From Armatimonadota bacterium (GTDB lineage: Bacteria; Armatimonadota; Fimbriimonadia; Fimbriimonadales; Fimbriimonadaceae), in the NCBI GenBank assembly GCA_022563855.1, contig JADFMN010000001.1, positions 186,001 to 250,000 on the forward strand: DNA of 64,000 nucleotides, given 5' to 3'. The notes below the pieces were generated by a model. That model ran no database searches, was not told the DNA's origin, and saw only the letters and a program-made list of their open reading frames with translations. Numbering within the stretch: the first letter of the stretch is position 1; every line of letters starts with the position of its first letter. Below, one piece after another: positions 1,223 to 61,491 of the stretch. The position numbers and the translations under genes are program-made.

Positions 1223-1543
1223 ATGAGGTTTCGGACTAGCGATTGCATCGCCATTGGGGTCAGCGACATGACAGCCGCTGAGAAGTTCTACGTCGATGTG
1301 CTCGGTTTTGAGGTCGGCGAAAGGTGGGACGAATACGTCGAGCTGAAGACCGGCGCGCTCAAGCTGTATTTGTGCGAAGACGACGCTCCGATCTGCTTCG
1401 AAGTCTTGGTCGACGGCGTCCCGGCTGCGACCGACTACTTGGTCGAACATGGATGCAAGAAAGATGACGAAGAGGGAGACGAGGTGTTCGTGACCGACCC
1501 GTACGGCCTTAGGTTCTGCGTGTCTCAGTCTAAGGAGGGCTAG
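1223..1543 (+). CDS. VOC-family (glyoxalase-like) protein
   Basis: Single vicinal-oxygen-chelate domain, 106 aa. It opens with the typical beta-alpha-beta pattern (AIGVSDM...AEKFYVDVLGFE) and ends with VTDPYGLRFCV, the usual C-terminal strand with its Asp-Pro-x-Gly turn. Such proteins include dioxygenases, glyoxalases and drug-binding proteins; nothing here fixes the substrate. The start is set by the TAAAAT hexamer 6 nt upstream. A decayed duplicate of the last ~20 codons lies about 130 nt downstream (1671-1748). Confidence 0.8.
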   Translation: MRFRTSDCIAIGVSDMTAAEKFYVDVLGFEVGERWDEYVELKTGALKLYLCEDDAPICFEVLVDGVPAATDYLVEHGCKKDDEEGDEVFVTDPYGLRFCVSQSKEG

Positions 1544-1670
1544 TCGGCCGACAATCGCTCTGAAATCTTACGGCAAGAGGCGCCACCGCTCTGGCTTCGT
1601 CCCTCAATTCGTGTCGTATGGAGGGTTCACATTCTGGGACTCGTACCCTCCACACTGCGAGTGCGGAGGG

Positions 1671-1748
1671 ATGAATGCCGACGAACAGGCGTTCGTCACG
1701 GACCCGTACGGCCTCAGATTCTGCGTCTCTCAGTCCAAGGATAGTTAG
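1671..1748 (+). pseudogene. Decayed duplicate of the VOC gene's 3' end
   Basis: Reads MNADEQAFVTDPYGLRFCVS then QSKDS and a stop. It nearly repeats the C-terminus of the VOC gene at 1223-1543 (DEVFVTDPYGLRFCV...). Codons match at the DNA level with synonymous changes. No coding similarity is evident upstream apart from a hairpin-like GGAGGGT/ACCCTCC pair at about 1619-1652. Its stop overlaps the stop of the convergent methyltransferase gene. Remnant of a local partial duplication. Confidence 0.65.
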
Positions 1749-2587
1749 CCCGTCGAGGTCGTTTCCTTCTCCTTCGCCTCATGCGAGCGAGGTTTGACGA
1801 CCGCATTCGTGACCGGCTCGGATGGTTGCTGCCCGCGGCGAAACGGAAAGACCTTGGGCGTCGATTTCTTGTACTCCCGGTATGTGTCGCCGTACTGATC
1901 GGTCAGGTCCTTCTCTTCGAACACGATCGCTACGAAAATGTACGCCGTCGTCAGGACTGAGAACAGCATGTGGCCTACCGTCATCGCGGGTGCGGCCCAG
2001 AAGGCGACGATGAATCCCAGCATGATCGGGTGGCGACAGAGTTTGTACAGCCCGGTCGTCACGAACGTCTCGCCGTCTCTCACCTTGTCCTGCAGGTTGT
2101 CCACTACCTGCCTGAGACCCAGCAGGTCGAAGTGGTTGATCATGAACGTCGAGAGTGCGACGATCCCGAACCCGAGGAAGAACACTGCATTTATGACCGT
2201 CGCAAGCGGGCCCGTCACCGTCCAGATTGGATTCGTCATCGGAACCCAATATACGAACAACAGGATCAGAACGCACGAACTGAGCAGTACGTAAGTACTG
2301 CGTTCAACCGCCTTCGGAACAACCTTCGTCCAAATCTTCTTGAATGACGGTCTGGCCATCACGGAGTGCTGCAGGGCGAACCCGCTCAAAAGAATCAAGT
2401 TCAGAATCCAGCCCATCACGCCCGATGCAACCGTCGAAGCGGCAACGTCGATCGTTCGCGGCACCCAGTTTGTTCCGCCAATTTCGATCGGCGTGATGTT
2501 GCCTACGAAGCAGATCGCGTAAAGTAGCGTCGCCAAGCAAACGACGTAGCAAAGAAACCCATATATGAGTGCAAGAACTCGTGCCAT
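1745..2587 (-). CDS. mddA: Methanethiol S-methyltransferase-like integral membrane methyltransferase
   Basis: 280-aa membrane protein with about five hydrophobic segments and the isoprenylcysteine methyltransferase/NnrU-type C-terminus (GLYKLCRHPIMLGF ... FEEKDLTDQYGDTYREYKK), where AdoMet binds. The block GFALQHSVMARPSFKKIW, then ERSTYVL and STFMINHFDLLGLRQV, is the pattern I associate with MddA, which methylates methanethiol to dimethyl sulfide. The family call is strong; the MddA assignment rests on those motifs and should be confirmed. It converges on the VOC remnant. Confidence 0.75.
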   Translation of the reverse strand: MARVLALIYGFLCYVVCLATLLYAICFVGNITPIEIGGTNWVPRTIDVAASTVASGVMGWILNLILLSGFALQHSVMARPSFKKIWTKVVPKAVERSTYVLLSSCVLILLFVYWVPMTNPIWTVTGPLATVINAVFFLGFGIVALSTFMINHFDLLGLRQVVDNLQDKVRDGETFVTTGLYKLCRHPIMLGFIVAFWAAPAMTVGHMLFSVLTTAYIFVAIVFEEKDLTDQYGDTYREYKKSTPKVFPFRRGQQPSEPVTNAVVKPRSHEAKEKETTSTG

Positions 2588-2773
2588 AGATTTTCAACTC
2601 AAGCAAACCAAGACTGATATACGCTGGCGAGCATAACACCGGAATCGACCTTGTAGACCGTGACTTCAGATTGTGCCACTTCGAGATGGACTAGGACGGG
2701 GAATCGGGTTCTTTTTTCTGGAGTGGCCTCAGTGCCGTCAAGCTGACACGAAAGCGCTGGTCTACGAAATCCT

Positions 2774-3994
2774 CTAGTTTCGTACGGTTAAAGGCGTCAC
2801 CGCTCTGGCAGCTTGTGTCGGCTCCGTCCAGACTCCGTCCTCTTTCAGCAGCGCGACAAGCTCTTCGACGCCGCGTTCTTGCGGGATTCCATGCTTGACC
2901 GGCTCGCGCTTTCGATACAGCGTGATCTTGCCCCCGGCAGCGCCGACGTATCCGTAATCTGCATCGGCCATCTCGCCTGGACCGTTCACGATGCAGCCCA
3001 TCACGGCGATATCCAAGCCGACAAGGTGCTTTGTGGCCTCTCTGACCTCACGCAACACAGTCGGAAGGTCGAACTTGGTCCTGCCGCACGACGGACAGGC
3101 GATGTATTCGACCTGCGTCTTTCTCAGGCCCAGAGCTTGCAGGATTTCATAGCACGCCGGCAGTTCGTTGATCGGATCTTCTGCCAGGCTGACGCGAATC
3201 GTGTCGCCGATCCCCTCCGACAGCAGCGTCGCAATGCCTGCTGTCGACTTGATGCGAGCGTACTGTCCGTCGCCGGCCTCGGTGACCCCCAAGTGCAGCG
3301 GGAAGTTCATCCCCTCTTCGTCCAGCCTCATCGCCAAAAGCCGATTCGCCTCGATCATGATCGGAACCCGGCTGGCCTTCGCGCTGATGTTCAGATTCCA
3401 GAATCCGTGTTCGACACAGAGTCGGACGTACTCGAGCGCGCTCTCGACCATTCCTTCCACCGTGTTGCCGAATGTCACGAGCATTCGTTCGCTCAACGAG
3501 CCGTGGTTGACGCCTATGCGCATTGCGCGATTGCGGGCCTTGCACGCCTCGACCACCGGCACGAAAGTTTCCTCGATAGCGCTCCGCTCTGCTTTGTGCT
3601 CTTCTTCGCTATAATCCTCCCTCCCTGTGTGCTTTCGGAATACGAACAGGCCCGGATTGACGCGAATCTCGTCGACGTGCTTGGTCGCTTCGAGGGCGAT
3701 CTTCGTGCCTTGATGATGAACGTCGGCCGTCAGCGGCACCTTGCGATAACCCTCGCTGACTTTCGCAACAATCTCTTCCAGACACTGCGCCTCTTGAAGA
3801 GTCGGGGTAGTGACCCGCACGATTTCGCTTCCCGCCTTGTGCAGCGCGATGATCTGCTCGACGGATGCGTCGATATCGCGCGTCTCTGCCGTGATCATGG
3901 ATTGCACGACCACGAGGTGGTCGGAGCCGATCTGGACTGAATCCACCGTGCAAGTTCGGGTCGCTCTTCGTTCGAATTTCGTCTTGAGACTCAT
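2774..3994 (-). CDS. ispG: 4-hydroxy-3-methylbut-2-enyl-diphosphate synthase
   Basis: IspG/GcpE converts MEcPP to HMBPP in the MEP isoprenoid pathway. 406 aa from the ATG at 3994 ([10 protein letters not shown]); an upstream in-frame ATG at 4087 would add 31 unconserved residues. N-terminal TIM barrel ([17 protein letters not shown]...), then the 4Fe-4S half with [19 protein letters not shown] and [15 protein letters not shown] near the C-terminus. The cluster cysteines are in place. Transcribed divergently from the first histidine kinase gene. The pathway role is firm from family knowledge. Confidence 0.95.
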
Positions 3995-14391: not shown

Positions 14392-16092
14392 TTGTGCCTA
14401 GTGACCAACTTCGGCTCATATCCCTACTCTTCTCAACGAATGCCTGTGTTCGCCCGCAACGTCGTGGCGACCTCTCAGCCGTTGGCGGCCTCAGTGGGGC
14501 TGGAGACGCTCAGGCGTGGGGGGAACGCGATGGACGCGGCGCTGGCGACGGCGATCTGCCTGACGGTGGTCGAGCCGACCTCGAACGGCATCGGCTCGGA
14601 CGCGTTCGCCTTGATTTGGTCTGGCGGCGAGTTGCAAGGACTGAACGCGAGCGGCAAGTCGCCTGCGAACTGGGACGTCTCGAGGTTCGACGGCATGGAG
14701 CAAGTTCCCTTGCGAGGATGGGATGCGGTGACGGTGCCGGGCGCGGTCGATGCGTGGGTGCAGTGCTCGCGGCGGTTCGGGCGCATGCCGTTCAGCGAGC
14801 TTTTCGACGGTGCGCTGCGCTACGCCGAAGACGGATTCCACGTCTCCCCCGTCATAGGGCTTGTGTGGGCGCGTGCGGCGGAGGCGTTCAAGGGGTTCCC
14901 CGCTTTCTATGACACTTTTATGCCGGGGGACAAGGCGCCCGAGATCGGGAGCATCATGTTTCTTCCCGACCACGCCGAGACGCTTCGCTTGATCGCAGAG
15001 AGCGAGGGCGAAGCGTTCTATCGTGGTGAGATCGCTGAGAAGATCGTCAAGGACGCCGAGGCCAACGGCGCGGCTATGTCGCTGGACGACCTCGCGCAGC
15101 ACGAGTCGGAGTGGGTCGAGCCGATCTCCATCGGCTTTCACGGCGTCGATCTGAATGAGATCCCGCCGAACGGCCAGGGCCTCGCTGCACTGATCGCGCT
15201 GGGCGTCTTGCGCCACACTCCGGTTCTCGACTTCCCCATCGACTCCGCGGACTCGGTCCACCATCAGATCGAAGCGATGAAGATCGCGTTCGCGGAGGTC
15301 TTCGCGCATCTCAGCGACCCAGCAACCATGCGCGCCTCGGTCGATGAGCTGCTTGATGACACGTATCTCAAAAAGCAAGCCGACTCGATCGACCCGAAGA
15401 GCGCAGGTAAGGCACGCTCGATGCTCGCAGCCGCGCCGAGTACCGTCTATCTGTGCACCGCGGACGACGAGGGCATGATGGTTTCGTTCATCCAGTCGAA
15501 CTACTACGGCTTTGGATCCGGCGTGGTCGTCCCCGGCACGGGGATCGCGCTGCAGAACAGGGGCTGCGGTTTCACTCTCGAAAAAGACCACCCCAACGAG
15601 GCCGCCCCCGGCAAGCGCCCGTTCCACACGATCATCCCCGGCTTTGTAACTTCGGAGCGCGGGCTCTCAGCCCGCATCCAGGACCACGGACTCTCAGTCC
15701 GTGAGCCCGCTCCTATGGAAAGCGCGGTCCTTCAATCCGCTCAGGATGACAACCCCGCGCACTCCCAAAATGCGCTGATGGCGTTCGGGGTGATGGGAGG
15801 TCACATGCAGGCGCAGGGGCACGTGCAGACGGTTCTGCGAACCTTCGGCCACGGCCAAAACCCGCAAGCCGCATCTGATGCCCCACGCTGGCAGGTTTCT
15901 GAGGACGGCGAGGTCCTACTCGAAGAGGGTTTCGATACGAGTGTCGCCGACAATCTCGCGGCTCGCGAACACAAGGTTAAAACCAACATGGCTCCCGGCC
16001 ACTTCGGCGGCGGTCAGTACATCTTGAAGCTCGAAGACGGCTACTGCGCCGCGAGCGACCACCGCAAGGACGGCTGTGCCCTAGGATTCTGA
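14392..16092 (+). CDS. Gamma-glutamyltransferase family protein with a repeat insertion
   Basis: 566 aa, N-terminal-nucleophile hydrolase family: VVATSQPLAASVGLETLRRG, GGNAMDAALATAICLTVVEP, SNYYGFGSGVVVPGTGI, RPFHTIIPGF and FGVMGGHMQAQGHVQ. The classical Thr autoprocessing site corresponds to PSTVYLCTAD, where Thr is present; activity is plausible. The start is ambiguous: TTG at 14392 or GTG at 14401. Homology begins at SYPYSSQRMPVFARN, so the ATG at 14440 is too late. About 38 residues between IPGF and LMAFGVMGG are encoded by palindromic repeat DNA (15652-15765) and look foreign to the family. Confidence 0.88.
   Translation: MCLVTNFGSYPYSSQRMPVFARNVVATSQPLAASVGLETLRRGGNAMDAALATAICLTVVEPTSNGIGSDAFALIWSGGELQGLNASGKSPANWDVSRFDGMEQVPLRGWDAVTVPGAVDAWVQCSRRFGRMPFSELFDGALRYAEDGFHVSPVIGLVWARAAEAFKGFPAFYDTFMPGDKAPEIGSIMFLPDHAETLRLIAESEGEAFYRGEIAEKIVKDAEANGAAMSLDDLAQHESEWVEPISIGFHGVDLNEIPPNGQGLAALIALGVLRHTPVLDFPIDSADSVHHQIEAMKIAFAEVFAHLSDPATMRASVDELLDDTYLKKQADSIDPKSAGKARSMLAAAPSTVYLCTADDEGMMVSFIQSNYYGFGSGVVVPGTGIALQNRGCGFTLEKDHPNEAAPGKRPFHTIIPGFVTSERGLSARIQDHGLSVREPAPMESAVLQSAQDDNPAHSQNALMAFGVMGGHMQAQGHVQTVLRTFGHGQNPQAASDAPRWQVSEDGEVLLEEGFDTSVADNLAAREHKVKTNMAPGHFGGGQYILKLEDGYCAASDHRKDGCALGF
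15652..15765. repeat. Palindromic repeat inserted in the gamma-glutamyltransferase frame
   Basis: Two tandem perfect hairpins, both with loop CTC: a 7-bp stem at 15659-15675 (GCGGGCT) and an 8-bp stem at 15685-15703 (CACGGACT). They are followed by a CTTCAATCCGCTCAGGATGAC segment, similar to sequence at about 39826-39861. The insertion keeps the frame and falls between two conserved family motifs. Confidence 0.7.
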
Positions 16093-39789: not shown

Positions 39790-39880
39790 GGGTATGCACC
39801 GTCCCCTTAACCGCGCTCCTTTCCTTCGACTCTGCTCAGGACAGGCTCGCTCAGGATGACGGTTGAGGGGACTGATCCTA
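39790..39880. repeat. Inverted-repeat-flanked intergenic element
   Basis: Arms CCGTCCCCTTAACCG and CGGTTGAGGGGACTG flank a ~45-nt centre containing GCTCAGGACAGGCTCGCTCAG and ending GGATGAC, similar to the tail of the insertion in the gamma-glutamyltransferase gene. The 281-nt gap between ridA and the flagellar terminator holds no gene. Confidence 0.55.
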
Positions 39881-60933: not shown

Positions 60934-61491
60934 TCAATCCGGTTTGACGACACTCTCTGCCACAGCCTCAAACGGCAGTCCCTTCTCCGCGCTCCATAAC
61001 CCCTGCTCGAACAGTCGTGCGCTTGACCAGCGATACTCTTCGGGCCGGACAACATACTCGGCTTTGACCGGGTTTTGGTGAATGTAATCGAGCTTCTGTT
61101 CCAACATGTTGTCACCGACGATCTCCACGCTGCGGAACGACCGCTGCCAAAACGTGTTGCTGTTCAGGCCGTGTTGAGCGTCAAACTCCGCCAGATCCTC
61201 GGACGTCAAGAGGCGTGATATTGAACGACCAGCATTTGGCTTAAGCCGCTGCATAAACTTCCGAATATCCATTGTTTTAGAAAGGTGAATGACAAGGTGG
61301 ACGTGGTGCGACATGACGACATATGCGTGGAGCCTTGCTTCAGCCAGCCTGCTCTCCCGTGCGATTATCCGCACCATTTCGTCACGGGGCTCGTCGCGCC
61401 TGAACGCATGCACCAAGTCGAGCACGGTGGCTGTCACAAACATCATAGTCCCAGGCTTGTCGGAATTTCGGTAGTGCCTGTATCGCACCAT
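60934..61491 (-). CDS. REP-associated tyrosine transposase (RAYT, Y1_Tnp)
   Basis: 185 aa. HUH-type: the metal motif in VVMSHHVHLVIHLSK and the catalytic Tyr in KLDYIHQNPVKAEYV, plus FWQRSFRSVEIV. This single-domain form is the RAYT type that mobilises REP elements. It is flanked by three REP-like hairpins (60864, 61513, 61682) with identical arms, the expected arrangement. A frameshifted duplicate of its 5' end lies upstream. Confidence 0.9.
   Translation of the reverse strand: MVRYRHYRNSDKPGTMMFVTATVLDLVHAFRRDEPRDEMVRIIARESRLAEARLHAYVVMSHHVHLVIHLSKTMDIRKFMQRLKPNAGRSISRLLTSEDLAEFDAQHGLNSNTFWQRSFRSVEIVGDNMLEQKLDYIHQNPVKAEYVVRPEEYRWSSARLFEQGLWSAEKGLPFEAVAESVVKPD

Follow-up and report, generated by a model that had tools for sequence, protein, structure and literature searches.

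The GGT gene and its insert

The window, that is, the whole stretch of 64,000 nucleotides analysed here, corresponds to C1:186001-250000 in a draft genome that comprises 3.18 Mb and 22 contigs, and contains a gamma-glutamyltransferase (GGT) gene that carries two adjoining short repeats in frame. The relevant features are as follows.

14392-16092, plus strand: GGT open reading frame, 566 amino acids, start codon uncertain
15652-15759, plus strand: net insert of 36 codons (residues 421-456), delimited by alignment with 62 distinct homologous genes
15654-15713, plus strand: module A, with hairpin 1 (15659-15675), hairpin 2 (15685-15703) and an outer stem (15654-15658/15709-15713), identified from inverted repeats, the RNA fold and genome matches
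15717-15765, plus strand: module B, with arms (15717-15727 and 15755-15765) around the core TCCTTCAATCCGCTCAGGATGAC (15728-15750), identified from an inverted repeat that is 82% complementary and from genome matches
39826-39861, plus strand: intergenic B-type element that shares only the GCTCAGGATGAC part, with the exact match at 39849-39860

The open reading frame belongs to the GGT family, as indicated by the match to the Pfam profile PF01019 (467.5 bits against a cut-off of 27), and its best relative of solved structure is 2nlz_A (E 8e-141), the Bacillus halodurans 'cephalosporin acylase', also a GGT family member. The processing threonine T351, with which the small subunit starts, is invariant across 20 aligned sequences, and the small subunit of the E. 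coli enzyme aligns structurally from its residue 391 with residue 351 of the window protein. The insert is located between the FHTIIPGF and FGVMGG motifs. A sequence-only reading had described it as a palindromic repeat of about 38 residues placed in frame between these motifs; the placement and the palindromic character stand, whereas the net gain relative to homologues amounts to 36 residues and the DNA consists of two repeats joined together rather than a single one. The repeat-derived DNA appears to reach approximately position 15765, past the end of the net insert.

The two tandem hairpins with CTC loops noticed in that reading, GCGGGCT-CTC-AGCCCGC with a perfect 7-bp stem (hairpin 1) and CACGGACT-CTC-AGTCCGTG with a perfect 8-bp stem (hairpin 2), and the TCAGGATGAC tail at 15741-15750 are real: the inverted repeats are recovered and none of 200 shuffled sequences equals the fold, either for 15640-15780 folded as DNA (z -3.72) or for 15652-15766 folded as RNA (z -5.56). 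In the RNA fold, an outer stem formed by GGAGC and GCTCC closes both hairpins of module A into one unit, which is followed by a second unit that coincides with module B (z -3.98 when folded alone, equalled by 1 of 200 shuffles). Two of the six frames are open over the whole length of 15652-15766. The codon-usage score of the insert is 0.01 per codon, compared to 0.26 before and 0.21 after it, as would be anticipated for DNA without a history as coding sequence.

None of the 62 distinct GGT family genes that reach the site carries the insert. These include the 55 distinct genes of a first alignment of 58 rows (three genes were entered twice), which comprises distant GGT subfamilies and a paralogue from the same genome (L041) and thus does not consist of orthologues only, and seven of eight further same-family genes, the eighth (L164) being a fragment that stops short of the site. 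The occurrence of the same loop in orthologues had been named beforehand as the observation that would speak against an insertion. In its place, turns such as FAT-RNGQPLLAFGVMGG are present in the ten orthologues of the same family that extend across the site (52-64% identity), and the loop is absent from the natural orthologue of G012, which is 63.5% identical; downstream of the insert, the protein remains well conserved in the alignment. No empty site was found in the one genome of the same genus, which is about 68% complete and in which the GGT relative is a distant one.

The AlphaFold2 model of the protein, built from 20 aligned sequences, has a mean pLDDT of 87.9 and a pTM of 0.90. Residues 432-457 have pLDDT below 50 and are located between two strands (417-421 and 460-468). 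In this model, a check that the sequence-only reading had proposed, the insert forms a loop of low confidence, the rest of the GGT fold being predicted with confidence. Comparison with VIA-align 2 shows that the model resembles 2nlz_A over the whole length (Z 55.7, rmsd 1.4 over 509 residues, 47% identity), followed by the E. coli GGT 2e0w (Z 47.8). At the insert site, 2nlz has a short turn: the match stops at query residue 421 (chain residue 428) and resumes at 462 (chain residue 433). In the simplest structural reading, the insert probably extends the tip of a small-subunit beta-hairpin as a floppy loop and leaves the GGT core intact.

Two repeat families and their composite arrangement

A search of the genome with the 141-nt stretch around the insert, in which 40 of 97 first-look candidates were scored, yielded 60 listed matches that fall mainly into two sets, one matching the hairpin pair (A) and the other one the tail (B). 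Both parts of the insert are interspersed repeats of the same genome. The pattern of the first hairpin, GGAGCGCGGACTCTTAGTCCGCA, has 41 matches at no more than 3 mismatches and the reversed control none; these matches count hairpins, not elements, and at least one of them (C9:132133) is the second hairpin of a neighbour. Of the 41 matches, 30 are succeeded by a second hairpin with at least 5 bp, which occurs in 21 different sequences, 20 of which contain GGACTCTYAGTCC in the middle. The matches start with GGAG in 38 cases and with GTAG in none, a result that leans on the search pattern, which itself began with GGAG. With the same dependence on the pattern, module A shows neither the GTAG tag nor the degenerate form of it that REPs of the GTAG superfamily carry at one end. 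Among 101 genomes including the genome analysed here, matches to module A were detected in three, namely this genome and, with one match each, G013 and G078 (the reversed control gave one or two matches in 3 of the 101), and none in the single genome of the same genus, about 68% complete. Module A is a lineage-specific hairpin-pair family that is almost confined to this genome.

The pattern of the B core, TCCTTCGATCCGCTCAGGATGAC, has 60 matches in the genome at no more than 3 mismatches, again with none for the reversed control. The core in the GGT insert differs in one of 23 bases from a sequence that has 31 exact genome copies. The spread of module B is patchy but wide: it occurs in 14 of the 101 genomes, and another member of the phylum has as many as 30 matches. 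In variants from relatives, read by eye, the two sides of the outer stem vary in concert (TTCT/AGAA, TGCT/AGCA, CCCT/AGGG). The sequence GACG, which is the CGTC tag on the other strand, is present in 49 of the 60 matches, the pattern having fixed GAC and left the last tag base free; the GGT copy reads GACA, that is, TGTC, which along with CCTC is an allowed form of the tag. According to Di Nocera et al. (2013, PMC3733652), REPs of the CGTC superfamily have a stem of 8-9 bp and a loop of 4-5; module B resembles them in the tag of most copies and differs in the outer stem, which as read from the sequences comprises only 5 bp in the common form of the core (ATCCT pairing with AGGAT). In one locus (L070, C8:97798-98552), B cores form two tandem arrays, of which one consists of three cores spaced 53 nt apart on the minus strand and the other one of four cores spaced 45 nt apart on the plus strand.

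The intergenic element around position 39826, with which the insert had been said to share sequence, contains an exact GCTCAGGATGAC at 39849, the other one being at 15739 in the insert. The likeness holds for module B but not for the hairpin pair of module A, and no further GGACTCTYAGTCC hairpin pair is present in the window. In the genome as a whole, 7 of the 41 A matches are located within 150 nt of a B core. Besides the GGT insert, in which the distance is 52 nt, one A copy is followed by B downstream in the same orientation at a similar distance (48 nt, in C9), and C8:55910 reads as another arrangement of A followed by B. Other sequences recur beside A copies as well, one starting with TAACCTCCCCCGGCC and ending with GGGGAGGGATTC and another reading CAAGGTCGCCCAGGAGGACGACCCTCCA (flanks of L060, L061, L068, L069, L051, L053 and L076). 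The intergenic regions give the impression of a mosaic in which several families of short repeats are combined.

Coding context and candidate mobilisers of the repeats

Both A and B are short palindromes with many interspersed, mostly non-coding copies, as is typical of REPs in general. The coding context of all copies was assessed with a codon-usage score that requires one frame with a coding signal on both flanks and no stop in between; the score was trained on 113 long open reading frames from the same stretches and the window, probably including GGT, and is blind to insertions that are flanked by further repeats. With 180-nt flanks, one of the 41 A and one of the 60 B matches pass, both representing the GGT insert, compared to 580-602 of 1000 random positions in the window. 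With 90-nt flanks and a threshold of 0, C1:532819 and C4:230774 pass as well; at a threshold of 0.05, C4:230774 still passes and the B copy in GGT fails because its left flank is module A. The open reading frame at C4:230774 has no Pfam match.

Six-frame translation over the 101 matches yields 43 distinct open reading frames of at least 120 codons, all of which were scanned against Pfam, and only three contain a family above the cut-off, namely GGT and two M14 peptidases in which the repeat is at one end of the frame. In one of the latter (L067, C7:133900-140000, frame 1321-3150 on the plus strand), a zinc carboxypeptidase, the C-terminal tail is partly module A, from codon 573 of 610, and the repeat may supply a new C-terminus. 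In the other one (L138), the B core, at codon 8 of the frame, probably precedes the true start. A CehA/McbA family metallohydrolase identified with NCBIfam (L132, C10:1-7000, frame 1344-3482 on the minus strand) contains a B core within its last 31 codons. For the other 39 frames, no family is matched at E 0.001, and they have the appearance of shadow frames. The codon-usage score leads to the same picture, apart from the weak hits obtained with 90-nt flanks. The possibility that the repeats are unusually free of stops was rejected: the mean number of open frames per copy is 3.63 for A and 3.47 for B out of 6, compared to 3.97 and 4.05, respectively, in random window stretches of like size.

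Rickettsia palindromic elements (RPEs) are interspersed palindromes that lie in frame within protein-coding genes and encode an added segment of the protein. The GGT insert is similar to these elements in this respect, and unlike RPEs, which are found in many genes of one genome, the repeats described here are internal to a single gene (GGT) among the 101 matches, so that a Rickettsia-like wave of in-frame insertions was rejected.

The resemblance to REP/RAYT systems consists in paired hairpins with a short 5' tag and in the presence of genes for REP-associated tyrosine transposases. The genome encodes nine Y1_Tnp (RAYT-type) domains. One of the respective genes is located in the window (60934-61491, minus strand, 185 codons, 94.5 bits for NF047646 against a cut-off of 80), and both genes scanned against NCBIfam, including this one, score above the cut-off for REP_Tyr_transpos (NF047646). 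Unlike in REP/RAYT systems, no A or B motif is located in the approximately 1300 nt on either side of any of the nine Y1_Tnp matches, and the possibility that A is the REP of a local RAYT was rejected on this ground. A 9-bp hairpin with a GTAG tag (L084, C5:110417-110443, minus strand) is located 29 nt downstream of the Y1_Tnp gene C5:110556, as in a classic REP-RAYT pair; considered as a classic REP, this hairpin was rejected as well, given that it is single-copy in the genome when 3 or fewer mismatches are allowed. For the CGTC superfamily, no dedicated transposase is reported by Di Nocera et al. (2013, PMC3733652).

Origin and significance of the GGT insert

It is highly probable that the insert originates from a composite REP-like insertion of A and B into the GGT gene, a rare event that was in frame by chance and is tolerated in a beta-turn. 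Under this scenario, the lineage-specific hairpin pair A followed by the CGTC-tagged B would have entered the gene; the net length would be a multiple of three by chance, and the landing frame would happen to lack a stop. The insertion would then encode about 36 additional residues that are probably disordered and form a loop where, at the tip of a small-subunit beta-hairpin, homologues have a tight turn. Selection would remove most insertions into genes, whereas this one would be tolerated because the turn can take it, the enzyme presumably being still expressed and active. The suggestion of the sequence-only reading that an interspersed repeat has been tolerated inside an enzyme is supported in this form, considering that both parts are genome repeats, that none of the 62 homologues has the loop and that the model retains the fold.

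Alternatively, the insertion could have damaged the enzyme, leaving a pseudogene too young to have acquired stops. This alternative, which appears unlikely, would fit with the presence of 36 extra residues only about 8 residues before the conserved FGVMGG motif and with a second GGT family gene in the genome (C10:66931, 33% identical) that could stand in. The open reading frame, however, extends over 566 codons without a stop or frameshift, T351 and the other invariant positions are retained, and the model places the insert at a turn of a predicted intact fold.

It is still less probable that the loop is an old, selected feature of a GGT subfamily and that the likeness to the repeats is incidental or later. 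The frame is intact, the downstream part of the protein is well conserved, and the first hairpin differs from the commonest form of A by compensated stem changes, so that this copy need not be brand new; nevertheless, a loop that is found in none of the 62 homologues, has no host codon bias and contains a B core one base off a sequence with 31 exact copies speaks against such a history. Misplacement of a repeat inside the gene during assembly, conceivable in a draft genome of 22 contigs with many near-identical short repeats, is very improbable given that, within a contig of 539 kb, the gene and its reading frame carry on from one side of the insert to the other, that the sequence of the GGT copy recurs in none of the other first-hairpin matches listed, and that reads usually span repeats of this size (about 115 nt).

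Insertion of a composite repeat thus being the preferred reading, its place among known systems can be specified. As described in PMC3733652, GTAG and CGTC REPs are short, mostly intergenic palindromes that often form dimers or groups; some are located wholly inside open reading frames, where groups of them encode 20-30 and up to 82 residues, some of these frames being the only modified coding sequence in the species, and some intragenic REPs are equated with the RPEs of Rickettsia. Module A differs from the GTAG REPs in its GGAG tag, and the sections consulted mention neither a GGT host nor such a composite of A and B. A literature search that reached a minority of the subscription journals found no report of the insert or of repeat A. 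In-frame insertion of such repeats has precedents in Rickettsia and in several other bacteria; the GGT case is set apart by the repeat family A, of which no description was found, by the composite of A and B, and by the GGT host.

A bolder and rather improbable extension is that A is young, perhaps still moving, and travels with B, and that the new disordered loop alters some property of the enzyme, such as maturation, partner binding or, via the hairpins in the mRNA, expression, and is now kept by selection. If so, a REP-type element would have supplied new protein sequence in a lineage for which no such report was found.

Altogether, the GGT gene represents a clean single-gene case of interspersed palindromic DNA becoming protein sequence, and the fold model suggests why this site would tolerate the insert. 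The lineage-specific hairpin-pair family, with 41 matches here and at most one in each of 100 relatives, could help to find the enzyme that mobilises it.
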